This document shows positions 1,144-12,111 of a stretch of 64,000 bases of DNA, one piece after another (position 1 is the first letter of the stretch; every line of letters begins with the position of its first letter). The notes beneath the pieces were generated by a model. The model worked only from the letters and a program-made list of their open reading frames with translations. It was not told the DNA's origin and did not search any database. Both the position numbers and the translations under genes were made by a program. Source of the stretch: Sphingobium ummariense RL-3 (lineage in GTDB: Bacteria > Pseudomonadota > Alphaproteobacteria > Sphingomonadales > Sphingomonadaceae); NCBI RefSeq assembly GCF_000447205.1, contig NZ_AUWY01000039.1, positions 38,587-102,586 on the forward strand. The letters run 5' to 3'.

Positions 1144-3399
1144 TTACTGCCCTGTTGCGGAGATGCCACGCCCTAGCAGCGGCTGCACCTCTTCGAACGG
1201 GATCGCGGGCCCGAAATGAAAGCCCTGACCGTAGTGGCAGCCCCCGGTGCGCAGATAGTCGATCTGCTGCTGATTTTCGACGCCCTCCGCAACGGTCCGA
1301 ATTCCCAGGCTATAGGCCAGGTTCAGCACGGCCCGGACGATCGCGGCATCCTCCGGGTCGGTCTCCAGGTCGCGCACGAAGCCGCGGTCGATCTTGATGA
1401 TATCGATCGGGAATTGCTTGAGGTGCGAGAGCGACGCGTAGCCGGTGCCGAAATCGTCGAGCGCGATCGAAATGTCCTCGTCGCTCAGTACCCGCAGCGC
1501 ATGGGCCACCCGTTCGCTGTTGCGGCCCATGAAGACCGATTCGGTCACCTCGACCTCGATCATCGAGGGCGGTAGATCTGCCTCCCGCAGGCGCTCCAGC
1601 AGTCGCTCGGCGAACCCCTCCTCGTTGAGGTCGGCGTCGGACACGTTGAACGCGATCTGACCCACGTCGATGCCCTCCATGCGCCATGCCAGGCAGTCGC
1701 GGATGACGCAGTCGATCATCCGCTGGGTAATCGCCGGCCCCAGTTCCGGATGCTCGAAGGCTGCCTTGATGTCACCGGGCATGACGAGGCTGCCGTCCCG
1801 AGTGCGGCAACGGAAGAGCGCCTCGAATCCCACGACCGCACCGCTCTCCAACGACACCTTGGGCTGGTACCAGGGACAGGGCTCCTCCTCCGCCAGGATG
1901 TGGCGCGCGCGGTCCAGCATCGCGCTCTCCTGCTGCCAGCTGTCCAGCAGCGCGGAGTGGAAGACCGTAGCCCGCCCGCGTCCGCTGTTCTTGGCGTGAT
2001 AGAGGGCGATGTCGGCATGCTTGACGAGCGCTGTCCCGTCTCTGCCATGGGCCGGGAACAACGCTGCGCCGATGCTGACGCGGCAGTCGAGCGGCCGTCC
2101 GCGATAGGACAGCGGGGCGTGCAGAAGGTGCGTCAGCCGCGACAGGATCGGCGGCAGGTCGTCGGCACTGCGCAGGGCGGGCAGCAACACGGCGAATTCG
2201 TCCCCACCCATCCGTGCGGCCAGGTCGCCCGGGCGCAGGGCATGCTGCAGGCGCTCGGCCACGGCAGCGAGCAGCGCATCCCCGGCGTCATGCCCGGCCG
2301 TGTCGTTCACCCGTTTGAAATCGTCGAGGTCGATCAGAAGGATGGCGAAGTGGCCGGTAGCGGCTTTCGCGAGCCGGGTCAGCGATTCCAGAAAATGCGA
2401 TCTGTTGCCCAGGCCCGTCAGCGGGTCCGACATCGCCAGCCGTTCCAGATGCTGCTCGGCGATCTTGCGGTCGGTGATATCGACGGCGCTGGTCATGAAA
2501 CAGGCTTCGCCGTCGATCACGATCTCGCGCGAAGACAGCAATATGTCGCGCATGCTCCCGTCGCCCCGGCGCAGCCGGCATTCGAAATTATCGAGCGCCT
2601 TGCCCCGTTCGAGTTGCGCGAACAGCGCATCCCGGGCGGACAGATCCTCATATGTCTGCGCGACATTGGTGAGCGTGCTGTTGCTCCCGGCGGCATAGGC
2701 TTCCGCCGCGGCCCGGTTCAGCCGGATGACCGACCCGTCCCGCCGCGTTACCAGCAGTGGCAGCGGCACCGCCATGAACATGCGCTCTAGCGCGTCGCGC
2801 GCCGCCTCGGCTTCCTTGCCCGACGTCCACTCCTTGCGCTGGAGCCGATTGGTCCGCGCGACCGCGATCCACATTCCGCAGTGCAGGATCAGCAGGGCCA
2901 GGATCATGCCGGACAGAGTCGGCGCAAGCGGCGCTCGCCACAGATAGCCGATCAGCAGGATGACGCCGCAACCCAGGCCACCGCCGACATTGCCGCGGAA
3001 GCTGGTGGGCACGACCAGATAGAAGACGGTCGGCAGCAGTACCAGCACGAAGATAGCAATGTCGCTGCGGGACGAGACGAGGAAGGCGACGCCTATGGCC
3101 GTGACCGCCTGCCAGGCGAAGCAGATCCGCTCGACCGCCCTGAAGCTTGTCATATGGCGGCAGAAGGGAAGGCAGGCGAGCGACCAGAGGATGACCGCGA
3201 CCCGCGCGGGCACGGCGACCCAGAAATGGGGGGTCCCGGCAAAGCGCCAGTCGCTGAACAGGAAGAGTGCGTTGAGCACGACCGACAGGATGAAGATCAG
3301 CCGCGCCTGACGGCGCGAATCGCCCAGCCGGTCCGCTTGGAAACGCGCTTCCTTCGCGCGGTCGCGAAATTCGCCCGTGATGGGTGATAGAGGGGTCAC
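1144..3399 (-). CDS. Membrane PAS-GGDEF-EAL cyclic-di-GMP enzyme
   Basis: This 751-residue protein has a hydrophobic sensor region of about six helices (residues 30-180), a PAS domain (about 200-310), a GGDEF domain and an EAL domain. The diguanylate cyclase signature 'MGGDEF' is intact, with the first Gly at residue 398. The phosphodiesterase signature 'EALFR' starts near residue 526, and the loop motif 'DDFGTGYASL', 'EVTES', 'KIDRGF' and 'AEGVEN' are all present. Both activities could therefore be functional, and the protein may make or degrade c-di-GMP depending on the signal. It is transcribed away from the ribosomal block, with no gene coupled to it. The ligand sensed by the membrane region cannot be read from sequence. 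Confidence 0.93.
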   Translation of the reverse strand: MTPLSPITGEFRDRAKEARFQADRLGDSRRQARLIFILSVVLNALFLFSDWRFAGTPHFWVAVPARVAVILWSLACLPFCRHMTSFRAVERICFAWQAVTAIGVAFLVSSRSDIAIFVLVLLPTVFYLVVPTSFRGNVGGGLGCGVILLIGYLWRAPLAPTLSGMILALLILHCGMWIAVARTNRLQRKEWTSGKEAEAARDALERMFMAVPLPLLVTRRDGSVIRLNRAAAEAYAAGSNSTLTNVAQTYEDLSARDALFAQLERGKALDNFECRLRRGDGSMRDILLSSREIVIDGEACFMTSAVDITDRKIAEQHLERLAMSDPLTGLGNRSHFLESLTRLAKAATGHFAILLIDLDDFKRVNDTAGHDAGDALLAAVAERLQHALRPGDLAARMGGDEFAVLLPALRSADDLPPILSRLTHLLHAPLSYRGRPLDCRVSIGAALFPAHGRDGTALVKHADIALYHAKNSGRGRATVFHSALLDSWQQESAMLDRARHILAEEEPCPWYQPKVSLESGAVVGFEALFRCRTRDGSLVMPGDIKAAFEHPELGPAITQRMIDCVIRDCLAWRMEGIDVGQIAFNVSDADLNEEGFAERLLERLREADLPPSMIEVEVTESVFMGRNSERVAHALRVLSDEDISIALDDFGTGYASLSHLKQFPIDIIKIDRGFVRDLETDPEDAAIVRAVLNLAYSLGIRTVAEGVENQQQIDYLRTGGCHYGQGFHFGPAIPFEEVQPLLGRGISATGQ

Positions 3400-4777: not shown

Positions 4778-6850
<2,073 letters not shown>

Positions 6851-6983
6851 AGAATCCGCTGATCGGCCCGGGAAACCGGGTCGGTTAGGGCTGGCATTCT
6901 GCAAATTTGCTGCTATGGACGCGCCTTCGCAAGGCGCGGCCGAGCGGTCAAACCACACGGATTTGATTAGAAGGTAGGATAAA

Positions 6984-8174
<1,191 letters not shown>

Positions 8175-8185
8175 TATAGGACCGC

Positions 8186-8225
8186 AGCGGCGCGAATCGC
8201 CTGATTCGCGCCGCTCGGAATTTTT
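8186..8225 (+). terminator. Intrinsic terminator between tuf and rpsJ
   Basis: AGCGGCGCGAATC (8186-8198) and GATTCGCGCCGCT (8203-8215) form a perfect 13-bp stem with a GCCT loop, followed by CGGAATTTTT. This marks the end of the str unit, or a partial stop before rpsJ. Confidence 0.75.
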
Positions 8226-8318
8226 GCCGCCTCGGATCGTCTTTCTCCGGCTCGAATGAGCTAGAAGGGCAGTAGCGGGGCGGTTTTGTTTTTGGCTCTT
8301 TCGCATCGGTACAGGAAT

Positions 8319-8627
8319 ATGGACAGCAACATCCGCATTCGCCTCAAGGCGTTCGATCATCGCGTGCTCGACCAGGCGACCGGCGACATCGCCGACACCG
8401 CCCGCCGCACGGGCGCTCTCATCCGCGGTCCCATTCCCCTTCCGACGCGCATTGAGAAGTTCACGGTCAACCGTGGCCCGCACATCGACAAGAAGTCGCG
8501 CGAGCAGTTCGAGGTCCGCACCTACAAGCGTATGCTTGACATTGTGCAGCCCACGCCGCAGACGGTCGACGCGCTGATGAAGCTGGATCTGGCTGCCGGC
8601 GTGAACGTGGAAATCAAGCTGGCCTGA
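8319..8627 (+). CDS. rpsJ: 30S ribosomal protein S10
   Basis: This is the 102-residue S10 (NusE), beginning '[19 protein letters not shown]'. It is a structural protein of the 30S head and, in other bacteria, part of the NusB antitermination complex that links transcription and translation. An open frame extends further upstream, but the ATG at 8319, preceded by 'ACAGGA', matches the family start. It is unusually isolated: a terminator lies 94 bases upstream and another about 200 bases downstream. Confidence 0.97.
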
Positions 8628-8663
8628 TCGCCGGCAAGTTCCTGCCAACCGCAAGGAGGGTGG

Positions 8664-8855
8664 GGTATCGGGCATTCCGCCTATGGTGGAGGCTCAAACG
8701 ACACAAGGGATACCGCACGGCCGCTCCGGTGAACCGGTTCGGGTCGTGGTCCTGGTCCCCCGTCGCCTTCCCCGAGAGGGGTCGGCATCCAACCCTGACG
8801 GGGTGATCGCTATATTCGGGTTGGGCCGCGAAGGAGAAATCCTGCGCGGTTTTTT
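8664..8855 (+). promoter_or_regulatory. Structured RNA leader ahead of rplC, ending in a terminator (putative attenuator)
   Basis: The 277-base gap between rpsJ and rplC contains a series of self-complementary elements. GGTATC (8664-8669) pairs with GATACC (8709-8714), enclosing CCGCC-TAT-GGTGG (8677-8689). These are followed by CCGG-TGAA-CCGG (8726-8737) and by CCCC-GAGA-GGGG (8770-8781), which is flanked by a GCC/GGC outer helix. The series ends in an intrinsic terminator at 8826-8855. A multi-helix leader ending in a terminator directly before a ribosomal-protein gene is the layout of an autoregulatory attenuator, with L4 or another product of the operon a possible ligand. The structures are seen in the sequence; the regulatory function is inferred. 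Confidence 0.55.
8826..8855 (+). terminator. Intrinsic terminator upstream of rplC
   Basis: CCGCGAAGGA (8826-8835), a GAAA tetraloop (8836-8839) and TCCTGCGCGG (8840-8849) form a 10-bp stem with one A-G mismatch, followed at once by six T residues (8850-8855). It is a textbook intrinsic terminator placed inside the S10 gene cluster. Confidence 0.8.
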
Positions 8856-8904
8856 CGTTGGATACGCCCGCTGCTACGGTGGGCCTCTATGGGAGTAATC
8901 GGTG

Positions 8905-9660
8905 ATGCGCACAGGCGTGATCGCTAAGAAAGTCGGGATGACCCGTCTGTTCCAGGAGGACGGACGTCATATTCCCGTTACGGTTCTCGCCCTCGAGGGC
9001 AATCAGGTCGTCGCCCGCAAGGACGTCTCGTCGGATGGCTATGTCGCTGTCCAGCTCGGCGCGGGTGTTGCGAAGGTCAAGAATGTCGCCAAGCCGCAGC
9101 GCGGCCACTTCGCCAAGGCGGAAGTGGAGCCGAAGGCGCGCCTGGTCGAATTCCGCGTCGCCGAGGATGCGCTTCTCGATGTCGGCGCCGAGATCGCGGC
9201 CGACCATTTCATCGCCGGCCAGCTGGTCGACGTGGCGGGCCATACCCAGGGTAAGGGTTTCGCCGGCGCCATGAAGCGCTGGGGTTTCGGCGGTATGCGC
9301 GCCACCCACGGCGTGTCGATCAGCCACCGCGCCCACGGTTCGACTGGTAACCGCCAGGATCCGGGTCGCGTCTTCAAGAACAAGAAGATGGCTGGCCACA
9401 TGGGTGACCGCGAGCGGACCCAGCAGAATCTCGAGATCGTCCGCACGGACGTCGAGCGCGGCCTGCTGTTCGTCAAGGGCAGCGTCCCGGGCGCCAAGGG
9501 CACCTGGCTGACCGTCTGCGACGCCGTCAAGGTCAAGCGTCCCGCTGACGCGCCCTATCCGGCGAGCCTGAAGCAGGCCGCCAACAGCAACACCGCTGCG
9601 GCAGAGACGCCGGCCGAAGAGGCTGCCGCTCCCGAAGCGACCGAAGGCCAGGAGGGCTAA
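8905..9660 (+). CDS. rplC: 50S ribosomal protein L3
   Basis: This L3 is 251 residues from ATG 8905; an adjacent in-frame GTG at 8902 is a less well spaced alternative, as 'GGGAG' lies nine bases before the ATG. L3 is an early assembly protein that reaches the peptidyl-transferase centre. The conserved '[13 protein letters not shown]' loop, carrying the Gln that is methylated in other bacteria, is intact. The C-terminus has a tail of about 25 Ala/Glu-rich residues beyond the E. coli protein. The stop is three bases before rplD. Confidence 0.97.
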
Positions 9661-9663
9661 GAA

Positions 9664-10287
9664 GTGAAGGTCAACGTACAGACCCTCGACGCGCAGAGCG
9701 CCGGCGAGCTGGAGCTGAACGACGCCGTGTTCGGCGTCGAGCCCCGCGCCGACATCCTGCACCGCGTCGTCACCTGGCAGCTCGAGAAGCGCCGCGCACC
9801 CGCGCGGGCGACCCGCGAGCGTTCCGACGTCGCCCGTACCGGCAAGAAGTTCGGTCGCCAGAAGGGCGGCGGCACCGCCCGTCACGGCGACCGCAAGGCG
9901 CCCGTGTTCATCGGCGGTGGTAAGGCGCACGGCGCCCGCGCCCGCGACTTCGGCCACGACCTCAACAAGAAGGTGCGTGCGCTGGGCCTGAAGATGGCGC
10001 TTTCGTCGAAGGCCAAGGACGGCTCGCTGATCGTGCTCGACAGCTTCGACGTGGCGGATGGCAAGACCAAGAACCTGGTCGCGAACCTCGCCAAGCTGAA
10101 CCTCAGCAAGGCGCTGTTCATCGACGGCGACGCGGTGAACGTCAGTTTCGCAAAGGCTTCGGCCAACATCGTGGGTGTCAACCTGCTGCCCGCCGTCGGT
10201 GCCAATGTGTACGACATTCTGAAGGCCGACTCGCTGGTGCTCACCCGCGCCGCGGTCGAGAAGCTGGAGGCCCGTTTCCATGGCTAA
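9664..10287 (+). CDS. rplD: 50S ribosomal protein L4
   Basis: This 207-residue L4 starts with GTG, three bases after the rplC stop. The extended loop lining the exit tunnel ('[21 protein letters not shown]') is intact. In gammaproteobacteria L4 represses its own operon by binding an mRNA leader and causing termination, which makes it the first candidate ligand for the leader upstream of rplC. It overlaps rplW by eight bases. Confidence 0.97.
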
Positions 10288-10594
10288 GAAGCAAGCCGCG
10301 ACCGTGGACAACCGTCATTACGACGTCGTTGTCGCGCCGGTCATCACCGAGAAGTCGACCCTTCTCTCCGAGAACAACGCCGTGGTCTTCAAGGTCGCGA
10401 ACGAAGCGTCGAAGCCGGAGATCAAGGCCGCTGTCGAGGCCCTGTTCAACGTGAACGTGGTGAGCGTCAACACGCTGGTCACCAAGGGCAAGACGAAGAA
10501 GTGGAAGGGCAAGCCCTACACCCGCTCGGACGTCAAGAAGGCGATCGTCCGCCTGGCCGATGGTCAGTCGATCGACGTCACCACCGGTATTTGA
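10280..10594 (+). CDS. rplW: 50S ribosomal protein L23
   Basis: This is a 104-residue L23 located at the exit of the peptide tunnel, where it docks trigger factor and the signal recognition particle. '[13 protein letters not shown]' and '[16 protein letters not shown]' are the diagnostic segments. The start overlaps the end of rplD by eight bases, suggesting translational coupling. Confidence 0.97.
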
Positions 10595-10604
10595 GGCAGG
10601 ATAA

Positions 10605-11441
10605 ATGGCACTCAAGCACTATAACCCGACGAGCCCGGCCCAGCGCGGCCTGATCCTCGTCGACAAGTCGAGCCTGCACAAAGGCAAGCCTGTCAAGGCG
10701 CTGACCGAGGGCAAGCGCAAGACCGGTGGTCGCAACAACAAGGGCCATGTGACCTCGCGCGGCATCGCCGGCGGCCACAAGCAGCGCTATCGCATCATCG
10801 ACTTCAAGCGTCGCCTGTGGGACGTCGAAGGCACGGTCGAGCGTCTGGAATATGACCCCAACCGCACCGCCTTCATCGCGCTGGTCAACTATGCCGATGG
10901 CACCCAGGCCTATATCCTGGCGCCGCAGCGCCTGGCCCCCGGCGACAAGGTCGTTTCGGGCCGGAAGACCGACGTGAAGCCGGGCAATGCGATGGAGCTG
11001 GGCCAGATGCCGGTCGGCACCATCATCCACAACATCGAGATGAAGCCGGGCAAGGGTGGTCAGCTCTGCCGTTCGGCTGGCACCTATGCCCAGCTCGTCG
11101 GTCGCGATCGCGGCATGGTGATGGTCCGCCTGTCTTCGGGTGAGCAGCGCTACATCCGTTCGGACTGCATGGGCACCATCGGCGCCGTGTCGAACCCCGA
11201 CAACGCCAACACCAACCTCGCCAAGGCCGGCCGTAACCGCTGGCTGGGCAAGCGCCCGCTGACGCGCGGCGTGGCGAAGAACCCGGTCGATCACCCGCAT
11301 GGCGGTGGTGAAGGCCGGACCTCGGGCGGCCGGCATCCGGTCACGCCGTGGGGCAAGCCGACCAAGGGTGCGCGCACCCGCCACAACAAGGCGACGGACA
11401 AGTTCATCATCCGTAGCCGCCACGCGAAGAAGAAGAGGTAA
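10605..11441 (+). CDS. rplB: 50S ribosomal protein L2
   Basis: This 278-residue L2 is required for subunit association and peptidyl transfer. It carries '[20 protein letters not shown]' near the N-terminus and the C-terminal '[19 protein letters not shown]', including the His conserved at the active site. The length matches the family. It lies ten bases after rplW, preceded by 'AGGA'. Confidence 0.98.
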
Positions 11442-11446
11442 GCGAG

Positions 11447-11725
11447 ATGGCTCGTTCCGTCTGGAAAGGTCCGTTCGTGGACCTCAGCCTTCTGAAGAAG
11501 GCGGAAGCCGCGCAGGATGCCAATGGCCGCAGCGGCCCGATCAAGACCTGGTCGCGCCGCTCCACCATCCTGCCGCAGTTCGTCGGCCTGACGTTCAACG
11601 TCTATAATGGCCGCAAGCATGTTCCGGTCTCCGTGAACGAGGATATGGTGGGTCACAAGCTCGGCGAGTTCGCCCCGACCCGCTACTTCCCCGGCCACGC
11701 CGCCGACAAGAAGGGTAAGCGCTGA
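11447..11725 (+). CDS. rpsS: 30S ribosomal protein S19
   Basis: This 92-residue S19 binds the 30S head near S13. '[18 protein letters not shown]' and '[15 protein letters not shown]' are typical. It begins five bases after rplB, and its TGA overlaps the ATG of rplV by one base. Confidence 0.97.
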
Positions 11726-12111
11726 TGTCGAAGCCCAAGGCTCCCCGTCGCGTCGCCGACAATGAGGCTCTGGCCGTCGGCACGCAGATCCGCGGTTCGG
11801 CCCAGAAGCTGAACCTGGTGGCGACGCTGATCCGCGGCCGCAAGGTCGAGGACGCGCTGAACATTCTCGCCTTCTCGAAGAAGGCGATGGCGGTCGACGT
11901 GCGCAAGGTGCTGGCTTCGGCCATCGCCAATGCGGAAAACAACCACAATCTGGACGTCGACGCTCTGGTCGTCGCGGAAGCATCGGTGGGCAAGAGCTTC
12001 ACCATGAAGCGCTTCCACGCCCGTGGCCGCGGCAAGTCGACCCGGATCCTGAAGCCCTTCAGCCGCGTGCGCATTGTCGTGCGTGAGGCTGGCGAAGAGG
12101 CGGAGGCGTAA
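11725..12111 (+). CDS. rplV: 50S ribosomal protein L22
   Basis: This is a 128-residue L22, slightly longer than the E. coli form at its N-terminus. Its beta-hairpin loop reaches the exit tunnel and is a site of macrolide resistance; '[20 protein letters not shown]' is the recognisable loop. It shares one base with the rpsS stop codon (TGATG) and ends four bases before rpsC. Confidence 0.96.

Follow-up and report, generated by a model that had tools for sequence, protein, structure and literature searches.

The gap between rpsJ and rplC in Sphingobium ummariense RL-3 contains a real conserved RNA, most likely a ribosomal protein leader of a known kind that occupies an unusual place in a central ribosomal operon. 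On balance, we favor the view that this single-copy RNA, with its predicted pseudoknot, is an autogenous leader through which a ribosomal protein, putatively L3 or L4, would repress rplC and the downstream genes. As with ribosomal protein leaders in general, a conserved structured cis RNA was found beside ribosomal protein genes.

The locus and its flanking genes

The stretch of DNA analyzed (the window) comprises 64,000 nt of the forward strand (GCF_000447205.1, NZ_AUWY01000039.1, positions 38,587–102,586). Genes recognized from translated open reading frames follow the order rpsL, rpsG, fusA, tuf, rpsJ, gap, rplC and further S10-spc genes (Table 1). An in-frame GTG at 8902 lies upstream of the rplC ATG. 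An initial annotation had named four helices in the gap at 8628–8904 (GGTATC/GATACC, CCGCC/GGTGG, CCGG-TGAA-CCGG and CCCC-GAGA-GGGG), and each of them, CCGCC/GGTGG included, is present; P1, P3, EX and the pseudoknot, described below, were absent from that list. Its remark that the position differs from that of the enteric L4 leader, upstream of rpsJ, was also right: here the core comes after rpsJ and ahead of rplC. Searches with Rfam 15 gave no matches at or above the gathering threshold in the 64-kb window, and at E values up to 5 within 8150–8960 only a miRNA model appeared, outside the gap at 8172–8223 (15.4 bits versus a threshold of 87).

Two further observations concern the surroundings of the leader. 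A simple terminator scan reported a strong terminator-like hairpin in the tuf–rpsJ interval (8186–8215, 13 pairs, tail CGGAATTTTT); therefore, rpsJ probably begins its own transcription unit. Beside the str operon, an open reading frame on the minus strand (1144–3399, 751 residues) resembles, by eye, a signaling protein with PAS, GGDEF and EAL domains.

Table 1. Coordinates of the leader, its elements and the adjoining genes in the window.
Feature	Position	Strand	Basis
rpsJ (S10/NusE), gene ahead of leader	8319–8627	+	ORF 8286–8627, internal ATG at 8319
Leader RNA, rpsJ–rplC intergenic	8628–8904	+	ORF boundaries; comparison of loci
P0, Sphingobium-type hairpin GGTATC (8664–8669):GATACC (8709–8714), overlaps P1	8664–8714	+	z –4.57 for 8660–8720; 35/104 core gaps
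P1 5′ strand GGGA and invariant ATACC	8707–8714	+	97.7% paired in 43 cores; 4 double compensations
P2 hairpin, includes CCGG-TGAA-CCGG (8726–8737)	8716–8748	+	12 double compensations
EX 5′ strand, P1 3′ strand UCCC (8756–8759) and P3 5′ strand CCCCGUC (8758–8764)	8752–8764	+	Pairing counts, tree-mapped compensations
P4 hairpin CCCC-GAGA-GGGG, sequence variable	8765–8786	+	Shared architecture
Pseudoknot strand PKa CCAACCC	8789–8795	+	PK columns 95.3% paired; 10 double compensations
P3 3′ strand GACGGGG (8797–8803) and EX 3′ strand TGATC (8804–8808)	8797–8808	+	Pairing counts, tree-mapped compensations
Pseudoknot strand PKb GGGTTGG	8818–8824	+	Pairing counts, tree-mapped compensations
Optional intrinsic terminator	8826–8855	+	Stem 8826–8849, one internal mismatch, GAAA loop, T6 8850–8855
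P6 hairpin beside rplC start region	8866–8884	+	Hairpin directly before CCTCT across distinct gaps
Near-invariant CCTCT(A/G) and Shine-Dalgarno GGGAG (8891–8895)	8884–8895	+	Motif counts, minimum-free-energy fold
rplC (L3), first gene after leader	8905–9660	+	ATG at 8905

Architecture of the leader core

Comparison of 111 loci (30 kept from 58 matches, one from the window itself, and the best 80 of 578) yielded 105 distinct rpsJ–rplC gaps. The rpsJ product was found by tblastn ahead of rplC in all 111 loci, and the core is sited between the two genes in 110 of these 111 loci selected by rplC. A common architecture, composed of P1, P2, P3 with its extension EX, P4 and a pseudoknot, is shared by 104 of the 105 distinct gaps, the sole exception to the pattern being L107 with a gap of 61 bases; in dinucleotide-shuffled gaps, the core pattern occurred 0 times in 1040. 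The 5′ part of the consensus for these 104 gaps reads GGGATACC – P2 hairpin – (UGCG)UCCCCCGUC – P4 hairpin – CAGCCC – GACGGGG, and continues 3′ of GACGGGG as (CGCA)UCACAUUU – GGGCUG – optional terminator – hairpin – GCCUCU(G/A) – Shine-Dalgarno – rplC. The GGTATC/GATACC helix of the initial annotation proved to be lineage-specific, with GGTATC upstream of ATACC in a minority of core gaps (Table 1). In some species only, a GC-rich hairpin of varying sequence (CCCCGGCGAAGGCCGGGGTCT) was seen by eye soon after rpsJ, at the start of the gap (loci L003, L012, L013, L023, L038, L080, L098, L099, L100, L103, L109 and L111); its appearance suggests a dispersed palindromic repeat that was inserted ahead of the leader.

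P1 and P3 have two bases in common, 8758–8759, so the core might alternate between two forms, as judged from the alignment. In the shared column, Watson–Crick pairing is kept in P1 (C to U with G to A), leaving U–G in P3. The overlap may thus represent either two mutually exclusive states or a tertiary contact. The window's leader also carries a doubled GGTCC (8746–8764, as GTGGTCC and TGGTCCCCC), such that P1 could form while P3 stays intact; in the minimum-energy fold, an alternative P1 built from the second GGUCC copy (8748–8752) coexists with P3.

Comparative support for the helices

Two alignments were used: A1, with 43 diverse cores, and A2, in which 100 cores were aligned by a model. 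A2 is fitted to P2, P3 and EX, with P1 and PK outside that fit. Across the 43 cores of A1, the P1 and PK columns are almost fully paired (Table 1), with two and four pairs, respectively, changed on both sides; P2 was poorly aligned by MAFFT (61.3%), and its register was corrected on A2. We then counted double compensations, defined as tree branches along which one standard pair becomes another standard pair with both sides changed. The tree of the 100 A2 cores gave 37 such changes on the proposed pairs (P1, 4; P2, 12; EX, 8; P3, 3; PK, 10), compared to a mean of 2.5 and a maximum of 7 in 500 controls with a partner column of similar variability. When partners were slid by +1, –1 or +2 columns, P1 and PK fell to 0, EX and P3 to 0–1, and P2 to 1–7.

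A stricter, R-scape-like test of individual pairs, with substitutions redistributed on the tree, returned no column pair at E < 0.05, and the six best-ranked of all pairs belonged to P1, the pair closing P2, EX, P2, EX and P3. The event count had been added because deep changes with few events weigh little in the per-pair test. The register and closing pair of P2 were set after the per-pair ranks had been seen, so its 12 events are partly post hoc, with 25 of the 37 lying outside P2; structure and test also derive from the same family. Overall, this comparison argues that the helices are well supported as a set, while single pairs are not. The outcome that the initial annotation named as refuting, no covarying pairs among relatives, was thus not observed for the helices as a set.

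Folding energy by itself is no proof of a conserved RNA, the evidence for which is comparative. The whole gap was only slightly better than chance relative to dinucleotide shuffles (z –1.58, 13/200 as good), and the core (8706–8835) was not unusual (z –0.05, 85/200). Two pieces stood out, namely the terminator (8821–8855; z –3.22, 1/200 shuffles as good) and the GGTATC/GATACC hairpin region, with 0/200 as good.

A near-invariant element at the rplC start

Beyond the core, the region immediately ahead of rplC carries its own conserved element. Of 114 distinct gaps, 113 carry GCCTCT at 20–28 bases upstream of the rplC ATG, the exception being L105 with GCCTAT, and in 113 the CCTCT follows immediately on a hairpin. 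At a folding energy of –5 kcal/mol or lower, such a hairpin directly precedes the motif in 112/114 gaps, compared to 123/342 random positions in the same gaps. The presence of GCCTCT and its preceding hairpin in nearly all gaps points to translation initiation.

A weak CUCU:GGAG hairpin is predicted in the minimum-free-energy fold of the window (pairing probability 0.76). Across the 114 gaps, however, CCUCU:Shine-Dalgarno pairing had a mean probability of 0.57 versus 0.50 with the six letters shuffled; the probability was above 0.5 in 62 gaps versus 61 in the control, exceeded its own control in 79/114, and averaged 0.35 when P6 was left out of the folded stretch. Sequestration of the Shine-Dalgarno sequence by CCUCU is thus a weak prediction of these folds, and since the hairpin is weak, the motif could serve as a contact site instead. 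A long-range pairing of CCUCUGU with an upstream ACAGA looked inconsistent by eye and was rejected.

An optional terminator

The near-perfect terminator described in the initial annotation, with its GAAA loop and T6 tract 49 bases ahead of the rplC ATG, was confirmed (Table 1). Our simple terminator scan did not report 8826–8855, as its rule apparently demands an uninterrupted stem. Among the 104 core gaps, a terminator was called in 51 by a T-run plus CGTTGG signature (53 without), and in 52 by an independent, signature-free rule of a hairpin plus T. The 49 terminators common to both sets indicate that most copies in several clades carry the signature. The T-run followed by CGTTGG (8850–8861 in the window) is common to terminator-bearing leaders of several separate clades. 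The terminator label changes six times on the tree; a single gain with repeated loss and several gains are equally likely histories.

These counts bear on the earlier suggestion of a sensing cis-acting RNA that halts transcription of the S10-spc genes. The conserved cis-acting RNA was upheld; attenuation cannot be its common function, because about half of core gaps carry no terminator. Consequently, an account in which the core does nothing other than sense a product and set termination at 8855 can be right only for species with a terminator. It draws on the near-perfect stem with T6 and on the 51–52 of 104 core gaps with terminators, but it has to contend with conservation of the core in the other half, with the repeated changes of terminator label and with an inspection of the gaps by eye, which found no conserved helix that overlaps the terminator and could act as an antiterminator; we regard it as unlikely. 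One candidate antiterminator, pairing PKa with the GTTGG after the U-tract, fits the window and was rejected because CGTTGG in L041 has no complement in PKa.

Alternatively, the hairpins could form an ordinary partial terminator and a stable 3′ end of the rpsJ mRNA, setting how much S10 is made relative to the rest without any ligand. The position behind rpsJ and the combination of a terminator with stable hairpins would suit such a role. However, the covarying pseudoknot, the conserved unpaired ATACC and the near-invariant GCCTCT, all found also where the terminator is missing, go beyond the needs of a processing block, making this explanation quite unlikely. An independent small RNA gene within the gap seems extremely unlikely: the window does present a compact structured RNA with its own terminator, but about half of core gaps have no terminator, the position ahead of rplC is fixed, and a consensus scan found no sigma-70-type promoter-like site within 6000–12000, leader included (alphaproteobacterial promoters may differ).

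Distribution and stepwise history

A covariance model of the RNA (R1) was searched in genome samples of the order, class and phylum. Among 296 genomes of the order it had a single match in each of 200, all in the family of Sphingobium; 13 genomes of that family gave no match, and the other 83 without a match, seven of them among those listed, were taken as other families. With stricter filters, at which weak matches are lost, R1 was found in 5/385 genomes of the class sample and 12/299 of the phylum sample, again all in this family, and no match outside the family occurred in the order, class or phylum samples. All 30 loci fetched have rpsJ and rplC flanking the R1 match.

This distribution weighs on the idea of a riboswitch for a metabolite or ion whose control of a ribosomal operon is incidental. 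A compact predicted pseudoknot, conserved unpaired bases and two overlapping helices are features in its favor. Against it, there is one copy per genome, ahead of rplC at every fetched locus, and a sensor of a common metabolite should also turn up at other genes; we consider this explanation very unlikely.

Outside the family, the rpsJ–rplC gap measures only 4–27 bases in 18/18 genomes, which represent six further families of the order and were drawn from 24 genomes of other families among the initial matches; this argues that the inserted RNA is not ordinary spacer. Within the family, 11 of the 13 genomes without a match have a detectable rplC, and their gaps of 37–107 bases end in GCCTCTG and a purine-rich stretch; a hairpin precedes GCCTCTG in 10 of these 11 core-less gaps, L154 being the one without. 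Unfiltered R1 searches produced 0 matches at E values up to 1 in 30 loci (these 11, L107 and the 18 outside the family). In the 99-base gap of L146 (G267), the minimal element (hairpin, GGCCTCTG, purine-rich stretch) appears by eye twice in tandem.

A protein tree of S10, L3 and L4 was built by a quick method with SH-aLRT support from 96 rows, nine duplicate or replaced loci having been dropped from 105. All 80 core-bearing rows fall on one side of a branch with a support of 99, the five outgroup rows are set apart (support 99), and the 11 minimal rows form three groups beside the core clade, at an unresolved fork. The simplest reading suggested by these sequences is that a compact spacer would have acquired the hairpin and CCUCU, followed by a single gain of the core. 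Because some early-branch rows are long-branched, it is also possible that the core was lost in early branches.

A proposed autogenous mechanism

In the mechanism that we favor, excess ribosomal protein would bind the folded core, and translation initiation at rplC would drop; translational coupling would pass this repression on to the downstream genes. Where a terminator is present, as in the window, binding would also favor a stop at T8850–8855. We place the main control at rplC translation because the family has in common the element at the ribosome-binding site and, in genomes that carry it, the core. By analogy with E. coli L4, the signal is likely to be an unassembled ribosomal protein encoded by the operon, with L3 and L4 the nearest. 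S10 is also the transcription factor NusE; with the leader sited behind rpsJ, S10/NusE would escape its control.

A more specific scheme, which we regard as doubtful, would have L3 pick the P1 or the P3 form, shut rplC translation in all core-bearing species and add attenuation where a terminator exists, leaving S10/NusE free; the system would have been built stepwise within one family, with the terminator coming and going. If true, it would amount to an L3 autogenous site.

Autogenous ribosomal protein leaders frequently, though not universally, mimic the rRNA site of their ligand. Similarity to rRNA was considered as a pointer to the ligand here. The L4 site of 23S rRNA comprises H19/H20, and mimicry of this site was rejected, GATAC being absent from the plus strand of the organism's own rRNA locus (L112). 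A different match emerged for GGGYTGRACAYGCC plus TCTG, with P6 cut out, which agrees with the organism's own 23S rRNA at position 2410 in 18/18 bases (maximum of 15 in 200 shuffles). We take position 2410 to be the start of H96, in domain VI. L3 is called the major domain VI binder in a yeast paper (PMC4671574). A position weight matrix for the PKb window scored 17.4 bits at 23S position 2410, the next-best sites scoring 8.1 (reverse) and 6.0 (forward); it was derived from 33 leaders, out of 34/104 gaps passing a filter whose pattern was chosen after the match had been seen. Five leaders (G066, G086, G061 with 10/14, G062 and G107) match their own 23S rRNA poorly at 2410. Naming the ligand from 23S mimicry was therefore dropped, as the pattern is post hoc and the control failed in five genomes. 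A second likeness, GGGATAaCCGC at 23S position 2477, works only with one inserted base and was not retained.

Relation to known leaders

The literature covered consists of portions of PMC7247131, PMC2704228, PMC10931766, PMC9508819, PMC4671574, PMC2965389, PMC1273637 and PMC7566282; no rpsJ–rplC leader in Alphaproteobacteria was found there, and an earlier description elsewhere is possible. The closest relative by operon is the E. coli S10 leader, where, according to the text consulted, L4 acts on both transcription and translation via a structured leader, one occurring in some gammaproteobacteria (PMC10931766). The two systems share the operon and a structured leader, with an intrinsic terminator in the window and possibly double control of transcription and translation. 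However, E. coli has its leader ahead of rpsJ, whereas that of the Sphingobium family lies behind rpsJ and directly before rplC, with covarying pseudoknot pairs, an optional terminator and matches in one alphaproteobacterial family only.

Several other leaders invite comparison by description. PMC7247131 names an S10 r-leader of Firmicutes, Clostridia among them, which belongs to the same operon in another phylum; no Rfam family matches the gap. Two further candidates appear in Table 1 of that paper (Eckert et al. 2020): an alphaproteobacterial L2 leader, with rplB, rpsS, rplV and rpsC as regulated genes, and an L4 leader of Archaeoglobi, with rplC, rplD, rplW and rplB. The former shares both the class and the gene cluster, but is set apart by the absence of rplC from its genes; the latter is alike in its gene list, with rplC as a regulated gene, but is of an archaeal lineage. 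Autogenous operators inside an operon are described, in the parts consulted, for E. coli S8 (spc operon, PMC10931766) and S7 (str operon, PMC2704228). Both have the operator behind the first gene or genes, as here, but involve other genes. The Sphingobium-family leader differs from them in another respect: to our knowledge, neither the S8 nor the S7 site contains a pseudoknot of this form.

The S10-spc cluster is a central ribosomal operon, and one alphaproteobacterial family has its own leader in it, behind rpsJ. Since a ready-made covariance model exists and genomes are available at every stage, from an empty gap through a partial form and the complete form to one that also carries an attenuator, the stepwise origin of a ribosomal protein leader becomes directly testable. 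The position of the leader further predicts that S10/NusE expression in this family is uncoupled from that of the other genes of the operon.
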